A stretch of DNA of 64,000 bases from Halorubrum cibi (GTDB lineage Archaea > Halobacteriota > Halobacteria > Halobacteriales > Haloferacaceae). Shown piece after piece: positions 5,275 to 53,391 of the stretch. The notes below the pieces were generated by a model. That model was not told where the DNA came from. It saw only the letters and a program-made list of their open reading frames with translations, and ran no database searches. Within the stretch, counting starts at the first letter, position 1, and each line of letters starts with the position of its first letter. The stretch spans positions 1 to 64,000 of the forward strand of contig NZ_FXTD01000008.1 in the NCBI RefSeq assembly GCF_900182635.1, written 5' to 3'. The position numbers and the translations under genes were made by a program.

Positions 5275-6870
5275 ATGACGGACCTGCTCATCGAGAACGC
5301 TCGGGTCGTCGACGGAACGGGCGCACCGTGGTTCCGCGGTGCCGTGACCGTCGAGGGCGGCCGGATCGAGTCGATACACCGCACGTCGTCCCCCGACGTC
5401 GATCCGGAGGCGACGCTCGATGCCGAGGGGAACGTGGTGTGTCCGGGATTCATCGATACGCACTCGCATTCGGATCTGGAGCTGTTCGAGGATCCCACGC
5501 TCGCGCCCAAGATCCGACAGGGGATCACCACCGAGATACTGGGGCAGGACGGCTTCTCCATGGCCCCGATGTACCGCGAGGGCGGTGCCGACCAGTGGGC
5601 GAAACAGCTCGGTGCGCTCGCCGGCGACGTCGATGTCGAGTGGACCTGGGGAAGCGTCGCCGACTACCTCGACGCCGTCGAGGAGAACGGCGCTGCGCCC
5701 AACGTGGCGCTCCTCGTGGGACACGGGGCCGTTCGGTTCGACGTGCTCGGCATGGCCGACCGCGCCCCCAGCGACGACGAGCTCGACGAGATGGGTGACC
5801 TGGTCACCGAGGCGTTGGAGGACGGGGCGGTCGGCTTCTCGACGGGGCTGATCTACACGCCGTGTACCTACGCGGACACACGCGAGATACGGGAGCTGGC
5901 CGCCCGTCTCGGGCCGTACGGGCGGCCGTTCGTCGCACATATCCGGAGTGAGGGACGATGGATCTGGGAAGCGCTCGACGAGTTCGTCGACATCGGTGCT
6001 GAGGAGGACGTCCCGCTCCATCTCTCACACTTCAAGGTCGCGGGCCCGATGCAACACGGTAAGGTCGACCGCGCGACAGCGCTCGTCGAGGCCGCCCGCG
6101 AGCGAGGCGTCGACCTCACGGCCGAACAGTACCCCTATACGGCCGGTAGCACGATGCTCTCGGCCGTTCTCCCACCGTGGGTTCACGCGGAGGGGCCGGA
6201 TGGGACGCTCGAATTCTTGACCGACGAGACGGCCAGGGAACGCATCCGTCGCGACATTGAGGAGTGGCGCATCGACGGGTGGGAGAACATCGGTAAGCTC
6301 ACTGGGTGGGAGAACGTCGTCATCGCGAACGTCGAGACGGCGGCGAACGAACGCGTTGAGGGGATGAACGTGGCCGCGATCGCCGCGGAGCGCGACGTCG
6401 AGCCCGTTGACGCGGTTTGCGACCTCCTCCTCGAGGAGGACCTCGCCGTCAGCATGACGATCCACATGCTCGAGGAGTCGGACGTACAAGACATTCTCTC
6501 GTACGAGCGGGTCTGTGTCGGGTCCGACGGACTGTTCGGCGGCAAACCGCACCCTCGCGTCTACGGAACGTACCCGCGAATTCTGGGACACTACGTCCGC
6601 GAGCGGAACCTCCTGACCGTCGAGGAGGCGGTACGAAAGATGACGTCGCTGCCGGCGCGTGCGATGGGGCTCGACCGGAAGGGGATTCTCCGGTCGGGGA
6701 TGGACGCTGACCTGGTTGTGTTCGACCCGGTCACGGTGGAGAGCCGGGCGACGTTCGAGAACCCGCGACGGCATCCGAAAGGGATCGACCACGTGCTCGT
6801 GAATGGCGAGTTCGTGGTTCGGGACGTCGAAACCACCGGAAACCTGCCCGGACGGGCCGTCCGAAAATAG
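5275..6870 (+). CDS. N-acyl-D-amino-acid deacylase-type amidohydrolase (copy 2)
   Basis: This 531-residue paralogue of the gene at 2200-3819 has the same block order. FIDTHSHSD carries the HxH metal motif, followed by ITTEILGQDGFSMAP, HIRSE, HLSHFKVAGP and SDGLFGGKPHPRVYGTYPR. It too has GQDG where classical D-aminoacylases have GNCG with a metal cysteine. A T-rich element (tttttctag, 5245-5253) lies 26 bases before the ATG, giving a probable leaderless transcript separate from the upstream M20 gene. Two copies of opposite orientation around one M20 gene suggest duplication and divergence for different acyl or amino-acid substrates (inference). Confidence 0.8.
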   Translation: MTDLLIENARVVDGTGAPWFRGAVTVEGGRIESIHRTSSPDVDPEATLDAEGNVVCPGFIDTHSHSDLELFEDPTLAPKIRQGITTEILGQDGFSMAPMYREGGADQWAKQLGALAGDVDVEWTWGSVADYLDAVEENGAAPNVALLVGHGAVRFDVLGMADRAPSDDELDEMGDLVTEALEDGAVGFSTGLIYTPCTYADTREIRELAARLGPYGRPFVAHIRSEGRWIWEALDEFVDIGAEEDVPLHLSHFKVAGPMQHGKVDRATALVEAARERGVDLTAEQYPYTAGSTMLSAVLPPWVHAEGPDGTLEFLTDETARERIRRDIEEWRIDGWENIGKLTGWENVVIANVETAANERVEGMNVAAIAAERDVEPVDAVCDLLLEEDLAVSMTIHMLEESDVQDILSYERVCVGSDGLFGGKPHPRVYGTYPRILGHYVRERNLLTVEEAVRKMTSLPARAMGLDRKGILRSGMDADLVVFDPVTVESRATFENPRRHPKGIDHVLVNGEFVVRDVETTGNLPGRAVRK

Positions 6871-49007: not shown

Positions 49008-49772
49008 GTGAGCCGATCTCGAACGCGCGTCGACGCCCACGTCAAGGTCCTCGACGACCGCGTCGTCGCCCGCGCGAAGGAGCGCGGGATCGACGCGCTC
49101 GTGTACGCGCCGCATTTCACCCGGCTGCCGACGATCCGCGAGCGCGCGACCCGGTTCTCCGACGACGATCTGACGGTGGTTCCCGGCCGCGAGGTGTTCA
49201 CCGGCGACTGGGGAAACCGCCGACACCTCCTCGCGATCGGGCTCGCGGAACCCGTCCCCGATTACATCACCTTCGAGGGGGCGATGGCGGAGTTCGAACG
49301 CCAGGACGCGGCAGTCCTCGTCCCACACCCGTCGTTCGCGACCATCTCGCTCACCCGGCCCGAACTCGCGGCTCACGACCCTCGGATCGATGCCATCGAG
49401 ACGTACAACACGAAGCTGCTCTCTCACCAGAACGACCGCGCACGCGACATCGCGGACGACCTCGACCTCCACGGGTTCGGGTCCTCGTACGCGCACCTCG
49501 GGTCGACCGTCGGCGAGGCCTGGACCGCTTTCGAGGGAGTCCTCCCCGACGCCGAGGCGGTAGTCGAGGCGTTTCGCGAGGGACGTTCCCGAACGGTCGT
49601 TCGGCGCAGCGGTCCCGGGCACCGACTCCGTGGTCTGATCGAGTTCGGGCATCTGGCCTACGAGAACACCTGGATGAAGGCCGACCGGCTGTTCCTCTCC
49701 GGCGAGGAGCCCACTCTTCCCTCGAACGTCGCTTACCGGGGCCGGTTCGACGACGTGGCCGTCTACGAGTAG
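49008..49772 (+). CDS. PHP-domain-associated phosphoesterase-like protein
   Basis: This 254-residue protein starts at GTG 49008 (SRSRTRVDAHVKVLDDRVVA). The GTG is preferred because the sequence before it is AT-richer promoter-like DNA and the longer frame adds an atypical N-terminus. RVDAHVKVLDD, APHFTRLPTIRERA, VVPGREVFTGDWGNRRHLLA and VLVPHPSF form the PHP-type metal site, but the first HxH is replaced by DAH, so metal binding may differ. The rest fits PHP-associated proteins of haloarchaea. The substrate is unknown. Confidence 0.75.
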   Translation: MSRSRTRVDAHVKVLDDRVVARAKERGIDALVYAPHFTRLPTIRERATRFSDDDLTVVPGREVFTGDWGNRRHLLAIGLAEPVPDYITFEGAMAEFERQDAAVLVPHPSFATISLTRPELAAHDPRIDAIETYNTKLLSHQNDRARDIADDLDLHGFGSSYAHLGSTVGEAWTAFEGVLPDAEAVVEAFREGRSRTVVRRSGPGHRLRGLIEFGHLAYENTWMKADRLFLSGEEPTLPSNVAYRGRFDDVAVYE

Positions 49773-49829
49773 CGAGGCGGCGATCGTTCGACCCGTTTTC
49801 GTTCGAACCGATCGCTAGATCGAGTGCGC

Positions 49830-50006
49830 TCACTCGGTAGTTCTCGAGTGACTGAACACATCTCTGAGGAGCATCCCACCACTACTGATAGCGAGGAATC
49901 CACCGATAGCTTGGAGGACGGCTGGAAGGGTACCATCTGAGGATCCCGAAAAAACGAGGATGATAGATAATCCGATTAGCATCAAGTACAACGCGGTCTC
50001 ATACAT
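49830..50006 (-). CDS. Small two-helix membrane protein
   Basis: This is a 58-residue protein starting MYETALYLMLIGLSIILVF, with a second hydrophobic segment LPAVLQAIGGFLAISSGG and a polar end RDVFSHSRTTE. A TATA-like agatatta lies about 25-32 bases before the ATG on the minus strand, supporting a leaderless gene. It is lower in GC than the flanking core genes. No family is recognised. Confidence 0.5.
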   Translation of the reverse strand: MYETALYLMLIGLSIILVFSGSSDGTLPAVLQAIGGFLAISSGGMLLRDVFSHSRTTE

Positions 50007-50221
50007 ATCTGGACGTCGTCTCTCCACTGGGTAATATCTGTGAATTGACCCCGTCCGAGCCGAGAGATAGCACTCTCTGGGCAGATAAACGGATCCGACA
50101 CAACGTCGAGAACCGAGCAAACGTCGCGCTCGGGCACGCTGATCTGGCAGCGGACGAGCTGGAGAGACTTGATTTTCCAGATTCCGATCGAAATGCCCGA
50201 TCTGCGTACAGGACGTGGTGA
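50000..50221 (+). pseudogene. C-terminal gene fragment without a start
   Basis: In one plus-strand frame the DNA encodes protein-like sequence ending ADKRIRHNVENRANVALGHA, then DLAADELERLDFPDSDRNAR and SAYRTW-stop (TGA 50219-50221). The composition and codon use look like a haloarchaeal C-terminus, but there is no in-frame ATG or GTG. The upstream part overlaps the oppositely oriented small gene at 49830-50006. It is best read as the decayed end of a gene cut off by rearrangement. The family is not identified. Confidence 0.35.
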
Positions 50222-50304
50222 CATTTTCCTCGTCGTGAATCGGGCCGTGAACTCCATGGAGTAGGACGGCCGGTCTCAGGTGCGGTTCTCTTCTCTCCCA
50301 GAAG

Positions 50305-50601
50305 TCACGCTACGACCATCGCATACAATACGACACAAAGGCCGAGAACTGTCACGAGACCTCGTACCAGAAGGACGATGCCTCCCTCCACCCCGGTCAG
50401 ATCTGTGAGTATGACTGCCACGTATACGCCCGCGGTTAGTAACGCGATACCGACGGCAAGCGCTCGCATCTTGGTGGAGCCGTTACGTCGGTATCCACGA
50501 TAGGCCAGCGTCGCGACGAACAGTCCCACAACGGCAGTTACGCTACGGGCTACTAACTCCACACTGAGCGGTTCTATCGTCAGCAAACTCGCTGGTATCA
50601 T
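50305..50601 (-). CDS. Small membrane protein, DUF7521-like (copy 1)
   Basis: This 98-residue protein has three hydrophobic helices (VARSVTAVVGLFVATLAYRG, ALAVGIALLTAGVYVAVIL, VRGLVTVLGLCVVLYAMV). The helix 1 end AYRGYRRNGS matches the LIRGYRRGPA of its neighbour, marking the two as paralogues. I recall such pairs as DUF7521 proteins beside winged-helix regulators in haloarchaea. The role is unknown; a membrane sensor for the regulator is one possibility. It overlaps the neighbour by four bases. Confidence 0.7.
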   Translation of the reverse strand: MIPASLLTIEPLSVELVARSVTAVVGLFVATLAYRGYRRNGSTKMRALAVGIALLTAGVYVAVILTDLTGVEGGIVLLVRGLVTVLGLCVVLYAMVVA

Positions 50602-50921
50602 CGCATCTCACCGCCGTACACCGTCCACAGGATCGTCCCCAATCCGACTAATTCACAGCCACTAACGAGTATCGAACGCCCGGTACTCCCGATGTCCGTC
50701 GCCGTCGGCAACGCGACACGAAGCAGTTCGGGCACCGTGATCAGGAAGATGAGCCCCACCGCGAGCCAGAGCATCTCGCGGTGAGCCGGTCCTCGACGAT
50801 AGCCACGGATCAGCACCGCGGCGATGGTCACCGACAACACCACCGAAACCACCGAGAGAGCAAGCACGGCAAGTGCGATGAGTGGGTCGCTCCCCGTGGT
50901 CTCCACCTGTCCTACGAGCAT
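50598..50921 (-). CDS. Small membrane protein, DUF7521-like (copy 2)
   Basis: This 107-residue paralogue of the preceding gene product has three or four helices (LIALAVLALSVVSVVLSVTI, LWLAVGLIFLITVPELLRVA and a C-terminal LVGLGTILWTVY). ATG 50921 follows the stop of the winged-helix gene by one base and its own stop overlaps copy 1, so all three are one operon read from the divergent promoter near 51300. Confidence 0.7.
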   Translation of the reverse strand: MLVGQVETTGSDPLIALAVLALSVVSVVLSVTIAAVLIRGYRRGPAHREMLWLAVGLIFLITVPELLRVALPTATDIGSTGRSILVSGCELVGLGTILWTVYGGEMR

Positions 50922-50922
50922 C

Positions 50923-51267
50923 TTAAGATAACCCCTCGAACAGTTCTGTGAACCGGTCGGCAGGGTCCGTCGAGCGTGACACGGCTACCTCGTAGCTCCC
51001 GTCGGTGAACGTGACGGTAACGTTCTCCACGGTGGCCACGTACCGCTTGTAGTGATGGCCGTCGGGATCGAACTCCTGCCGTTCGGTCACGAGGCCTGCG
51101 TCATGTAACCGATCGAGACGGCGGTACGCCGTCGAATCGGACATTTCACAGGCCGTACAGAGTTCATCGACTGACATCGGTTCGATCGTGAGGTGTGCGA
51201 GGATCGCTCGGGCGTACTCGTCGTCGAGTAACGCTAGGACGGCGTCCTCGTCCTCGCCCATGTCCAT
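50923..51267 (-). CDS. ArsR-like winged-helix regulator
   Basis: This 114-residue protein starts MDMGEDEDAVLALLDDEYA. The winged helix is IEPMSVDELCTACEMSDSTA, then YRRLDRLHDAGLVTERQEF. The C-terminal beta hairpin region (VENVTVTFTDGSYEVAVSRS) is typical of haloarchaeal HTH proteins. ATG 51267 is chosen because a T-rich TATA element lies about 25-30 bases upstream on the minus strand; a longer frame from 51300 is possible. It leads the DUF7521-like pair and is divergent from the protease gene; autoregulation through the inter-gene palindromes is likely (inference). Confidence 0.78.
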   Translation of the reverse strand: MDMGEDEDAVLALLDDEYARAILAHLTIEPMSVDELCTACEMSDSTAYRRLDRLHDAGLVTERQEFDPDGHHYKRYVATVENVTVTFTDGSYEVAVSRSTDPADRFTELFEGLS

Positions 51268-51302
51268 GCCAGATCCGGGTAACAGTAAAAAACCCGTCAC
51301 AG

Positions 51303-51317
51303 CTTCCGGGTCGGAAG
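51303..51317. promoter_or_regulatory. Inverted repeat CTTCCG-GGT-CGGAAG in divergent promoter
   Basis: Perfect six-base arms lie midway between the two divergent start codons (51267 minus, 51361 plus). It is a candidate operator for one of the winged-helix proteins encoded on either side. Confidence 0.4.
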
Positions 51318-51335
51318 TCGTGCCTGGGGTGCTAG

Positions 51336-51349
51336 GTATATCCGGATAC
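51336..51349. promoter_or_regulatory. TATA element and palindrome TATCCGGATA of the protease gene
   Basis: The TATA-like gtatatcc at 51336-51343 sits about 22-25 bases before the ATG at 51361, and a perfect ten-base palindrome TATCCGGATA (51339-51348) overlaps it. A repressor bound here would cover the promoter. Confidence 0.45.
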
Positions 51350-51360
51350 TTGCGCCAGGT

Positions 51361-52320
51361 ATGTCGTTACAATCGACGGTTGGCCGGGTCCTATCGACTA
51401 CCCTCCCGGAGAGGATCCGTCAACTCTGCTGGCCGGTCTGGAACGCCGAACAACGCCGCTTGCGCGCGCCGCTCCGTGCGCTCCTACCGACGGTACTTAC
51501 CTTTCTTCTCCTCGCAATCCTCCAGACCACGATCCGAGCCAGGTTCGTCCATCCGGTACGAGAGCTCCTCGAATTGACTGGAATCGCCATCATTCTCATT
51601 GGCGCGGTGCTTCTTAGTACACGAATCATCGACCGGCGTCCCATGAGCGGATTCGGCCTCTCGTTCGACCGAGATTGGTGGCGCTCGTTTGTCGTCGGTG
51701 GATTCGTCGCCACTGCGATCAACGGTGGCGCACTCGTCGTGGCACTCGGCGCCGACTGGGCTACGTTCGCTGGCGTAATGCGTGGGTCCGGCGACCTACC
51801 GTTCTTGCCTGCGATGGGGATCGTGTTCGGGTATATCGCTTTTGCGGCCGCATGGGAAGAGTTCGTTCTGCGTGGTGCGATGGTGAAGAATCTCGCTGAG
51901 GGATCGAACGGATACGTTCCCAAGTGGGTTGCTGTCGGCCTTGCTGTGGCTCTGAGCACCCTCGTGTTCGCGTTTCTACACGGTGGGAAGGTAACGCATC
52001 TCAGTCAATACGGGTACTACCTGATCGCTGGACTGGTACTGAGTGGAGCGTACGTCCTGACCGGCGAACTCGCCCTCAGTATCGGCTTTCATGTGTTCTA
52101 CAATTTCACTCAAACCGCGATTTTCGGTCTCGGTCACTCACAGCAAACTCCAGAGCTCTTCGCTGTCGACATCGTCGGGCCATCGCGTTGGGTTGGTGAG
52201 GAGGGACTCGTTTTTGTCGGCTTCGCCATCCTTGGTGGCTTGCTACTGGTTGCGTATATACGCCGACGCGACGGGAAGATCGAACTCGACGATCGTGTGA
52301 CTGCGTACACCGGACGGTAA
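51361..52320 (+). CDS. CPBP-family intramembrane protease (CAAX/Abi type)
   Basis: This 319-residue polytopic protein has the CPBP motifs: motif 1 AWEEFVLRGAM (EE pair and Arg), motif 2 FAFLHGGK and motif 3 GFHVFYN. All the catalytic Glu and His residues of CPBP/CAAX glutamic proteases are present. Members cleave prenylated or other membrane proteins, or act as bacteriocin-immunity-like or regulated proteolysis factors. A winged-helix gene follows 18 bases downstream, so both are probably one transcript. The substrate is unknown. Confidence 0.85.
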   Translation: MSLQSTVGRVLSTTLPERIRQLCWPVWNAEQRRLRAPLRALLPTVLTFLLLAILQTTIRARFVHPVRELLELTGIAIILIGAVLLSTRIIDRRPMSGFGLSFDRDWWRSFVVGGFVATAINGGALVVALGADWATFAGVMRGSGDLPFLPAMGIVFGYIAFAAAWEEFVLRGAMVKNLAEGSNGYVPKWVAVGLAVALSTLVFAFLHGGKVTHLSQYGYYLIAGLVLSGAYVLTGELALSIGFHVFYNFTQTAIFGLGHSQQTPELFAVDIVGPSRWVGEEGLVFVGFAILGGLLLVAYIRRRDGKIELDDRVTAYTGR

Positions 52321-52338
52321 CACATCTCGGACGAACTC

Positions 52339-52692
52339 ATGCCAACCGCATTCCCCCACCAGACTCCTGTCGAACACACACCGCGTGAACGGTCGAGAAT
52401 CGTCATCGACGACCAGCCGACCGACACGCTTCAGGTCGTTTCCTCGGATACCGCACAGCAGATACTGGCAACGCTCGATGACGAACCAGCGACGGCCTCC
52501 GACATCGCTGATGCTATCGGTACATCCGTACAGAACGCCAAATACCATTTGGGACACCTCCGTGAGGCCGACCTGATCGAGGCGGTAGACACATGGTACT
52601 CTAGAAAGGGGATCGAGATGACGGTCTACGCCCTCTCGGTGGAGGAGCTCGTCATTCAGTTTGGGAACACCACCGCAGAGACACGGCAGTGA
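52339..52692 (+). CDS. Winged-helix regulator downstream of the CPBP protease
   Basis: This 117-residue protein has a central winged helix at about 33-95: SSDTAQQILATLDDEPATAS, DIADAIGTSVQNAKYHLGHL and YSRKGIEMTVYALSVEELV. The N-terminal 30 residues are polar. The gene begins 18 bases after the protease stop. A pairing of a membrane protease with a soluble regulator suggests a signal relay, but direct evidence is lacking. It ends only 4 bases from a minus-strand gene remnant. Confidence 0.78.
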   Translation: MPTAFPHQTPVEHTPRERSRIVIDDQPTDTLQVVSSDTAQQILATLDDEPATASDIADAIGTSVQNAKYHLGHLREADLIEAVDTWYSRKGIEMTVYALSVEELVIQFGNTTAETRQ

Positions 52693-52693
52693 G

Positions 52694-52891
52694 TCACGAT
52701 CCGTCCCGTGGAGGAAGGTCGCCAAGGGTGCCCGGGCCGTCGGTGTGCGTGGCGGTAGAGAATACAGCTCCGTCGACCAGTACTGGTGGAGATATCACTT
52801 GATGATGAAGGTCCGGATCGAACGCGTAGTGCCAGCGCATCTCCCCCGATTTCCGATCGAACACGCTGATCGTCTTCTTCCCAGAAGTTGC
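52694..52891 (-). pseudogene. PQQ-type beta-propeller gene remnant
   Basis: The minus strand encodes SGKKTISVFDRKSGEMRWHY, then AFDPDLHHQVISPPVLVDGA and VFSTATHTDGPGTLGDLPPR, then DGS-stop (TGA at 52694-52696). The V-D-x-x-S-G-x-x-x-W strand pattern and PPVLVDGAVF are the repeats of BamB/PQQ-like propellers. Only about 65 codons remain. Upstream the DNA passes directly into the end of the DUF457 gene, so the rest of the gene has been lost. It marks the right boundary of the island. Confidence 0.65.
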
Positions 52892-52899
52892 GTCCGCCC

Positions 52900-53391
52900 T
52901 CAGATCCCGAATCCGGCGGTCGCCGACGAGAGGTCCACGTCGAGCGAGACGACGTAGGTGGTGACCGCCCAGAAGGCGGCTATCTCGAGGGCGGTGATGA
53001 TCACGGTCACGAGGTCCGCGTACTTGCTGCTCGTGGTGACGCCGAACGGGATCGAGAACTCCTCGTCCGAGAGGGGGTGAAAGAGCGCGATCCCCCGGCG
53101 ACTACCGAACAGGTCGAGCAGGTAGTGAGTCACCACGCCGACCCAGACGAAGTGGAGGTTGTCGAAGACGATCGGGTACGCGGAGACGACCGCGAGCACC
53201 GGGAGGCTGTGGAGCGTCTTCCGGTGTTTGCCGAAGGCGGTGTCGACGTCGGGGAAGAGCGCGCCCAACACGATCGGCACCGTGATCTGGGCGACCTTCC
53301 GGGCGGTGTCGACGTCGACTCCGGGCTCCAGCACGAACCCGAGTCCGACGGCGAGAAGCAGCGCGTTCAACACGTGACCGCGTTTGTTCAT
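52900..53391 (-). CDS. DUF457/YdjM-type membrane-bound metal-dependent hydrolase
   Basis: This 163-residue protein starts MNKRGHVLNALLLAVGLGF. It has four or five helices and the metal-type motifs RGHVLNA, LFPDVDTAFGKHRKTLHSLP and THYLLDLFGSRRGIALFHPL, the hallmark of the YdjM/DUF457 family of predicted membrane-bound hydrolases. Function in haloarchaea is unknown. ATG 53391 follows the family start pattern. The 200 bases before it carry a tandem repeat (53471-53551). Confidence 0.82.
   Translation of the reverse strand: MNKRGHVLNALLLAVGLGFVLEPGVDVDTARKVAQITVPIVLGALFPDVDTAFGKHRKTLHSLPVLAVVSAYPIVFDNLHFVWVGVVTHYLLDLFGSRRGIALFHPLSDEEFSIPFGVTTSSKYADLVTVIITALEIAAFWAVTTYVVSLDVDLSSATAGFGI

Follow-up and report, generated by a model that had tools for sequence, protein, structure and literature searches.

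The locus described here raises a simple question: do five genes packed into a patch of low guanine-plus-cytosine (GC) content in Halorubrum cibi make up a single system and, if so, what does that system control? The patch lies in a window of 64,000 nucleotides (the whole stretch of DNA that was analysed) on contig C8 of a 3.18-Mb genome, the nearest relatives of which are Halorubrum species. An initial annotation of this DNA had placed two divergent operons around a 93-bp gap, inside a low-GC island bounded at 49830–52891; gene positions and Pfam domains agree with that layout, and the limits match almost exactly an insertion that we place at 49828–52884. The minus-strand operon encodes a winged helix (wH1) and two membrane proteins (M1 and M2), with genes that overlap or nearly overlap, and diverges from a plus-strand operon for an intramembrane protease (CPBP) and a second winged helix (wH2). 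Judged from sequence conservation, wH1, M1, M2 and CPBP probably form a membrane-controlled switch for protease production. A more specific version, in which this is a mobile, self-contained cassette whose wH1, gated by M1/M2, would control both its own operon and CPBP from one palindrome, is a reading to which we give an even chance. The features on which the argument turns are as follows:

50305–50601, minus strand: M2, DUF7521 membrane protein
50598–50921, minus strand: M1, a further DUF7521-like membrane protein, with translational coupling to M2
50923–51267, minus strand: wH1, winged-helix regulator (ArsR/HTH_20-like)
51284–51292, minus strand: TATA-like box of the wH1-M1-M2 operon
51301–51319: putative operator palindrome AGCTTCCGGGTCGGAAGTC, from the intergenic alignment, flanked by the two divergent promoters and next to the TATA-like box of wH1
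51333–51342, plus strand: TATA-like box of the CPBP-wH2 operon, ctaggtatat
51361–52320, plus strand: CPBP (Rce1-like) glutamic intramembrane protease
52339–52692, plus strand: wH2, second winged helix, 18 bp past CPBP, accessory

The palindrome, a point beyond the initial annotation, has the putative operator consensus GGCTTC-N7-GAAGCC with a core of TTC-N7-GAA. This core is found upstream of wH1 in all 48 distinct CPBP-linked modules, where shuffled sequences lead one to expect 1.5, and the stricter form CTTC-N7-GAAG is seen in 40 of the 48 (0.08 expected). Pairs of a winged helix-turn-helix (wHTH) gene and a DUF7521 gene without a nearby CPBP carry the core in only one of 31 cases (0.56 expected), and that sole pair (L211) has a CPBP about 4 kb off. 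The palindrome is present in close modules and in both the divergent and the co-directional distant types, though their CPBPs share about 30% identity, and a plasmid locus (L226) has it along with intact M1 and M2. The window holds a single operator match (0.01 expected), a genome scan finds no further site within two mismatches, and a genome-wide regulon search gives nothing above control level. An operator that is essentially unique in the genome implies that control is local, covering wH1 and CPBP. The TATA-like box of wH1-M1-M2 lies 6–8 bp from the operator, with a T run kept at this spacing; orthologues suggest that wH1 probably starts at an inner ATG at 51261, which would place the box about 27 bp upstream. 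That of CPBP-wH2 precedes the start codon by about 25 bp and is weakly conserved. A palindrome of the same type also lies upstream of an additional wH2-type gene at two loci (L035 and L036).

How might such a switch operate? In the mechanism that we propose, wH1 would bind the palindrome between the divergent promoters and so control the wH1-M1-M2 operon and CPBP, plus wH2 where present, the net effect being presumably repression in the resting state. Linkage points to wH1 as the binder, because wH2 is absent from many operator-bearing modules. M1 and M2 would serve as sensor or gate, presumably binding wH1 so as to hold it at the membrane or release it, with contact made via a conserved basic loop (RGYRR) between transmembrane (TM) helices 1 and 2 and via the C-terminal end of the membrane proteins. 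A membrane event would then alter wH1 occupancy and, with it, the amount of protease.

This placement of CPBP at the end of the pathway rather than in its middle is suggested by the distribution of the regulator pair. Of 167 family genomes, 165 encode DUF7521, and a wH1-like protein sits beside it, mostly directly upstream, in 30 of 31 inspected loci. The wHTH-DUF7521 pair is thus near-universal and mostly without CPBP, which makes it a basic haloarchaeal regulator unit able to function without the protease. The operator, for its part, can outlast the loss of wH1 as a neighbour. Two CPBP copies with no adjacent wH1 (L046 and L048, the latter at 6001, about 10 kb from a complete module) retain the palindrome, so the palindrome serves the CPBP promoter too; a third such copy (L055) has lost it.

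These observations bear on regulated intramembrane proteolysis, in which, on a signal, CPBP would cut M1 and/or M2 and thereby free wH1. The module always encodes the protease together with membrane partners, the catalytic residues of CPBP are invariant, and CPBP and wH1 diverge together, all of which speaks for such a scheme; on the other side, most wHTH-DUF7521 pairs lack a CPBP neighbour, so that signalling needs none, and the CPBPs lacking an adjacent wH1 keep the operator, as befits an output. Cleavage of M1/M2 by CPBP is conceivable but unlikely. The initial annotation had favoured something close to it, a membrane signal relayed by cleavage or contact to two regulators: the idea of a membrane protein working with a soluble regulator is strengthened by the near-universal pair, while the cleavage relay to two regulators fares poorly, since pairs are common without CPBP, about half of the modules have no wH2, and lone CPBPs keep the operator. 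Because the regulator pair is common without CPBP and CPBPs parted from wH1 retain the operator, CPBP is more likely a regulated output than a signal-relaying protease.

Could the two operons nonetheless be accidental neighbours in a decaying, horizontally acquired island? The island does hold a truncated gene and an unconstrained open reading frame (ORF), both described below. The earlier view had been that the association would be accidental if the operons never occurred together elsewhere; they do, and this recurrence refutes the idea, with the operator and purifying selection also against it, leaving an accident extremely improbable. Some CPBP relative is present in 125 of 170 family genomes. 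Within these relatives a distinct group, at 55–92% identity and from about 24 genomes, nearly always has a divergent wH1-M1-M2 about 90–130 bp away, and the module layout is kept in about 27 other close loci from two haloarchaeal families, the hosts being Halorubrum, Halopenitus, Halobellus and Halohasta together with Haloarcula from another family. A wH2 gene behind CPBP is confined to the Halorubrum/Halopenitus/Halobellus part (the window and L034–L046), about half of the close modules. Distant CPBPs, at about 30% identity, likewise adjoin a wHTH-DUF7521 pair. Some of these loci have a divergent pair with a single DUF7521 (the second copy in L042, and L059, L062, L065, L161, L191, L192, L210 and L215), others a co-directional pair (L067, L069, L070 and L071).

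In the CPBP tree both partners lie within 2.7 kb for 41 of 112 rows, namely for 27 of the 30 close-group rows and for 14 of the remaining 82, and well-supported branches force at least seven changes of partner label. Distances between CPBPs correlate with those between wH1s at r = 0.97 over 40 modules and at 0.83 in the close group, against best values of 0.31 and 0.39 in 2000 permutations; because the modules are inherited together, this co-divergence reflects shared descent and does not by itself prove interaction. Purifying selection acts on all five genes, with ratios of nonsynonymous to synonymous substitution rates (dN/dS) mostly of 0.10–0.25 and at most 0.36 when compared with four relatives from other species. 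Clusters of neighbouring genes are for the most part frames that overlap genes of the module, along with an epimerase mostly confined to Haloarcula.

CPBP matches PF02517 at 52.4 bits (cut-off 22.4) and has the motifs EExxxR, FxxxH and HxxxN/D, with E166, E167, R171, F203, H207, H244 and N248 invariant in 29 sequences. Its structure model (predicted local distance difference test, pLDDT, 88) retrieves SpdC (probability 1.00) and MmRce1 (probability 0.99) in Foldseek, albeit at E-values no better than 0.009 and 0.095, respectively; a sequence search of the PDB with CPBP gives no match. It is, by its sequence, an Rce1-like intramembrane protease with intact catalytic motifs and predicted activity. 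M2 matches Pfam DUF7521 (PF24365) at 60 bits (cut-off 27) with dN/dS of 0.14–0.36. M1, recovered by a profile built from M2 and with dN/dS of 0.11–0.23, scores 26.1 bits, just below the same cut-off, and 114 bits with a profile made in this analysis. An AlphaFold2 (AF2) model of M2 (pLDDT 75) has three predicted TM helices at 11–40, 43–69 and 73–97; G51 is invariant and Y37, R39 and G87 nearly so. The basic loop RGYRR links helices 1 and 2 and may serve as a cytoplasmic contact site. A PDB sequence search with DUF7521 gives only marginal, unrelated matches to G-protein-coupled receptors and photosystems.

Both winged helices match HTH_20 (wH1 at 8e-11, wH2 at 8e-13), and wH1 has a C37-x-x-C40 motif that is invariant in the close group. 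One might suppose, then, that wH1 works as a thiol or metal sensor of the ArsR type, directly through these cysteines, with M1/M2 as outputs (for example in transport or repair) and not gates. C37 and C40 are indeed in every close-group wH1 row, and the wH1 profile resembles ArsR/SmtB and finds matches in ArsR-like structures from archaea, PH1932 and Phr among them. Yet distant modules with the same operator lack C37, several of them also lacking C40, and C37 is likewise missing from CPBP-free wHTH-DUF7521 pairs, which are coupled all the same. HTH_metalloreg scores, the ArsR metalloregulator model giving 37 bits and the other score being 28.5, fall short of the cut-off of 55 and thus outside ArsR/SmtB metalloregulator membership. 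We consider direct sensing by wH1 quite unlikely.

Where does the module come from? Two further features describe its setting:

49828–52884: inserted low-GC segment with the module and scraps of donor flank, between the PHP gene (ending at 49772) and the DUF457 gene (ending at 52900)
52690–52895, minus strand: remnant of a PQQ-propeller lipoprotein gene, its final 63 codons

The segment has a GC content of about 0.59 against 0.69–0.71 around it, and along the sequence GC dips to 0.54–0.62 from about 49,750 to 53,000, with 0.66–0.74 outside. It aligns as a single block, at 89.5% identity, with a locus of Halorubrum halodurans. There, an intact PQQ-propeller gene adjoins the module, and the remnant is 85% identical to the C-terminus of its 413-codon frame (L034); as the right end of the insert holds the last 63 codons of such a gene, the segment was excised from a similar context. 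The upstream neighbour is a PHP-type gene and the downstream one is of the DUF457/YdjM type. Between them, close Halorubrum relatives (L084, L085 and L089) have a gap of only 10–32 bp; across Halorubrum this gap is empty in several species, occupied by an HD-domain-like gene in one (L082, 645–1500), and filled by the module in the window. Since the gap is either empty or differently filled, the site is variable and the 3.06 kb of the window is an insert: 49828–52884 is imported DNA, inserted at a variable site. No close CPBP orthologue is present in the relatives that stand nearest by DUF457 identity (G126, G109, G115, G137 and G105). None of the PHP, DUF457 and downstream aminotransferase genes adjoins the module in other loci, two of which have a weak aminotransferase-like match. 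An ORF at 49830–50018 on the minus strand, with hydrophobic stretches and common only to the window and H. halodurans, was considered as a module gene and rejected, its dN/dS of 0.92 indicating no constraint at the protein level.

Related modules occur on the plasmid pHrrPV6, near toxin-antitoxin genes, and on plasmid unnamed2 of Haloarcula pelagica, near transposases. CPBP proteins occur in bacteriocin loci. Because the module is mobile and CPBP proteins are found in such loci, our guess is that the output protects against membrane-active antagonists, such as halocins, or other membrane stress. A stronger form of this idea would make CPBP an immunity or abortive-infection effector, the cassette being its induction switch, spread as a defence gene; this is compatible with the switch proposed above and adds a purpose to it. 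The patchy, mobile distribution speaks for it, as do these plasmid settings and the bacteriocin loci, while PADLOC gives no match for CPBP or DUF7521 (its wHTH matches cover only the HTH), no toxin gene is conserved alongside, and CPBP relatives are absent from the viral contigs searched, as is wH1 from the phage records searched. A defence role of this kind is possible, if rather doubtful.

Among known systems the closest likeness is to SdpR/SdpI of Bacillus subtilis (toxin SdpC), in which, too, a small winged-helix regulator is encoded in one operon together with a small polytopic membrane protein, the latter sequestering the small autorepressor (PMC1626106). The SdpR model NF033789, however, scores only 22.8 and 28.3 bits (cut-off 100), Pfam finds only DUF7521 and a weak DUF5985 match in the membrane partner and no SdpI match, and the module lacks a toxin gene, has two DUF7521 proteins of three TM helices in place of SdpI, and includes a coupled CPBP protease. 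By the sequence tests made, the module thus resembles SdpR/SdpI without homology. With the general haloarchaeal pair it has in common a homologous wHTH gene immediately before the DUF7521 gene; unlike the module, that pair usually has one DUF7521, no CPBP and no TTC-N7-GAA. Catalytic motifs and fold are common to CPBP/Rce1-like proteases (MmRce1, SpdC, MroQ, MrtJ and HVO_0784 of H. volcanii), but the module CPBP is a distinct subfamily tied to a regulator cassette, far under the cut-offs of the MroQ and MrtJ models and in a clade apart from a large cassette-free CPBP group. The archaellum regulator CsmR (HVO_1209) is likewise a small winged helix of haloarchaea that has a palindrome close to the promoter, although its motif, TATCA-N4-TGATA, and its link to archaellin genes (PMC13286277) differ from those of the module. 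At one locus (L003, 913–1740; G000:C4:23905-27144) the archaellin genes are preceded by a CsmR-like winged helix, which diverges from a gene with a weak DUF7521 match (26 bits), a possible DUF7521-type partner of CsmR. Transmembrane transcription regulators such as ArnR and ToxR are similar in their membrane-linked one-component control, except that they carry DNA-binding and membrane parts in one chain (PMC10269533), and the module has separate proteins.

Two side observations concern wH2-type genes. Free-standing wH2 genes near distant CPBP modules (L042 572–934, L062, L065 and L161) are preceded by another palindrome, roughly TGTTCGG-spacer-CCGAACA, a possible wH2 operator. Winged helices of the wH2 family are also found behind other membrane-protein genes (L038 4930–5328, L053 2221–2619, L159 8363–8746, L035 6667–7053 and L052 10270–10638), which suggests that the combination of a membrane protein with a small winged helix is a general haloarchaeal design.

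Several points weigh against a switch of the kind that we propose. The operator abuts the transcription factor B recognition element (BRE) and TATA box of wH1 but is about 13 bp more distant from those of CPBP, and the sign of regulation may differ at the two promoters. wH2 may bind the operator in some loci, and the conserved CxxC of wH1 would fit direct metal or thiol sensing too. No fused wHTH-DUF7521 ORF occurs among the surveyed loci, a fold search with DUF7521 gives no match better than E 1 and hence no confident structural match, and, as regards an immunity role, no conserved extra gene (toxin, peptide or substrate) was found beside the modules.

The families of the parts are known; their combination, its recurrence and its operator appear to be undescribed in the searchable literature. 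DUF7521 has no mention in the literature searched. We would class the module as a one-component regulator with a separate membrane partner and an unusual output. Whether it stands for a new archaeal signalling class, with a winged helix gated by a DUF7521 3-TM heterodimer and switching an intramembrane protease via a dedicated palindrome, as a mobile inducible cassette for immunity or envelope defence, is a tentative proposal that we would not yet expect to hold in full. To our knowledge, hardly any substrate or role has been described for CPBP proteases of archaea, and nearly all genomes of this haloarchaeal family carry wHTH-DUF7521 pairs. By tying the pair to CPBP proteases, the module joins both families and supplies a precise operator, so that the roles of both become testable in a tractable haloarchaeon.

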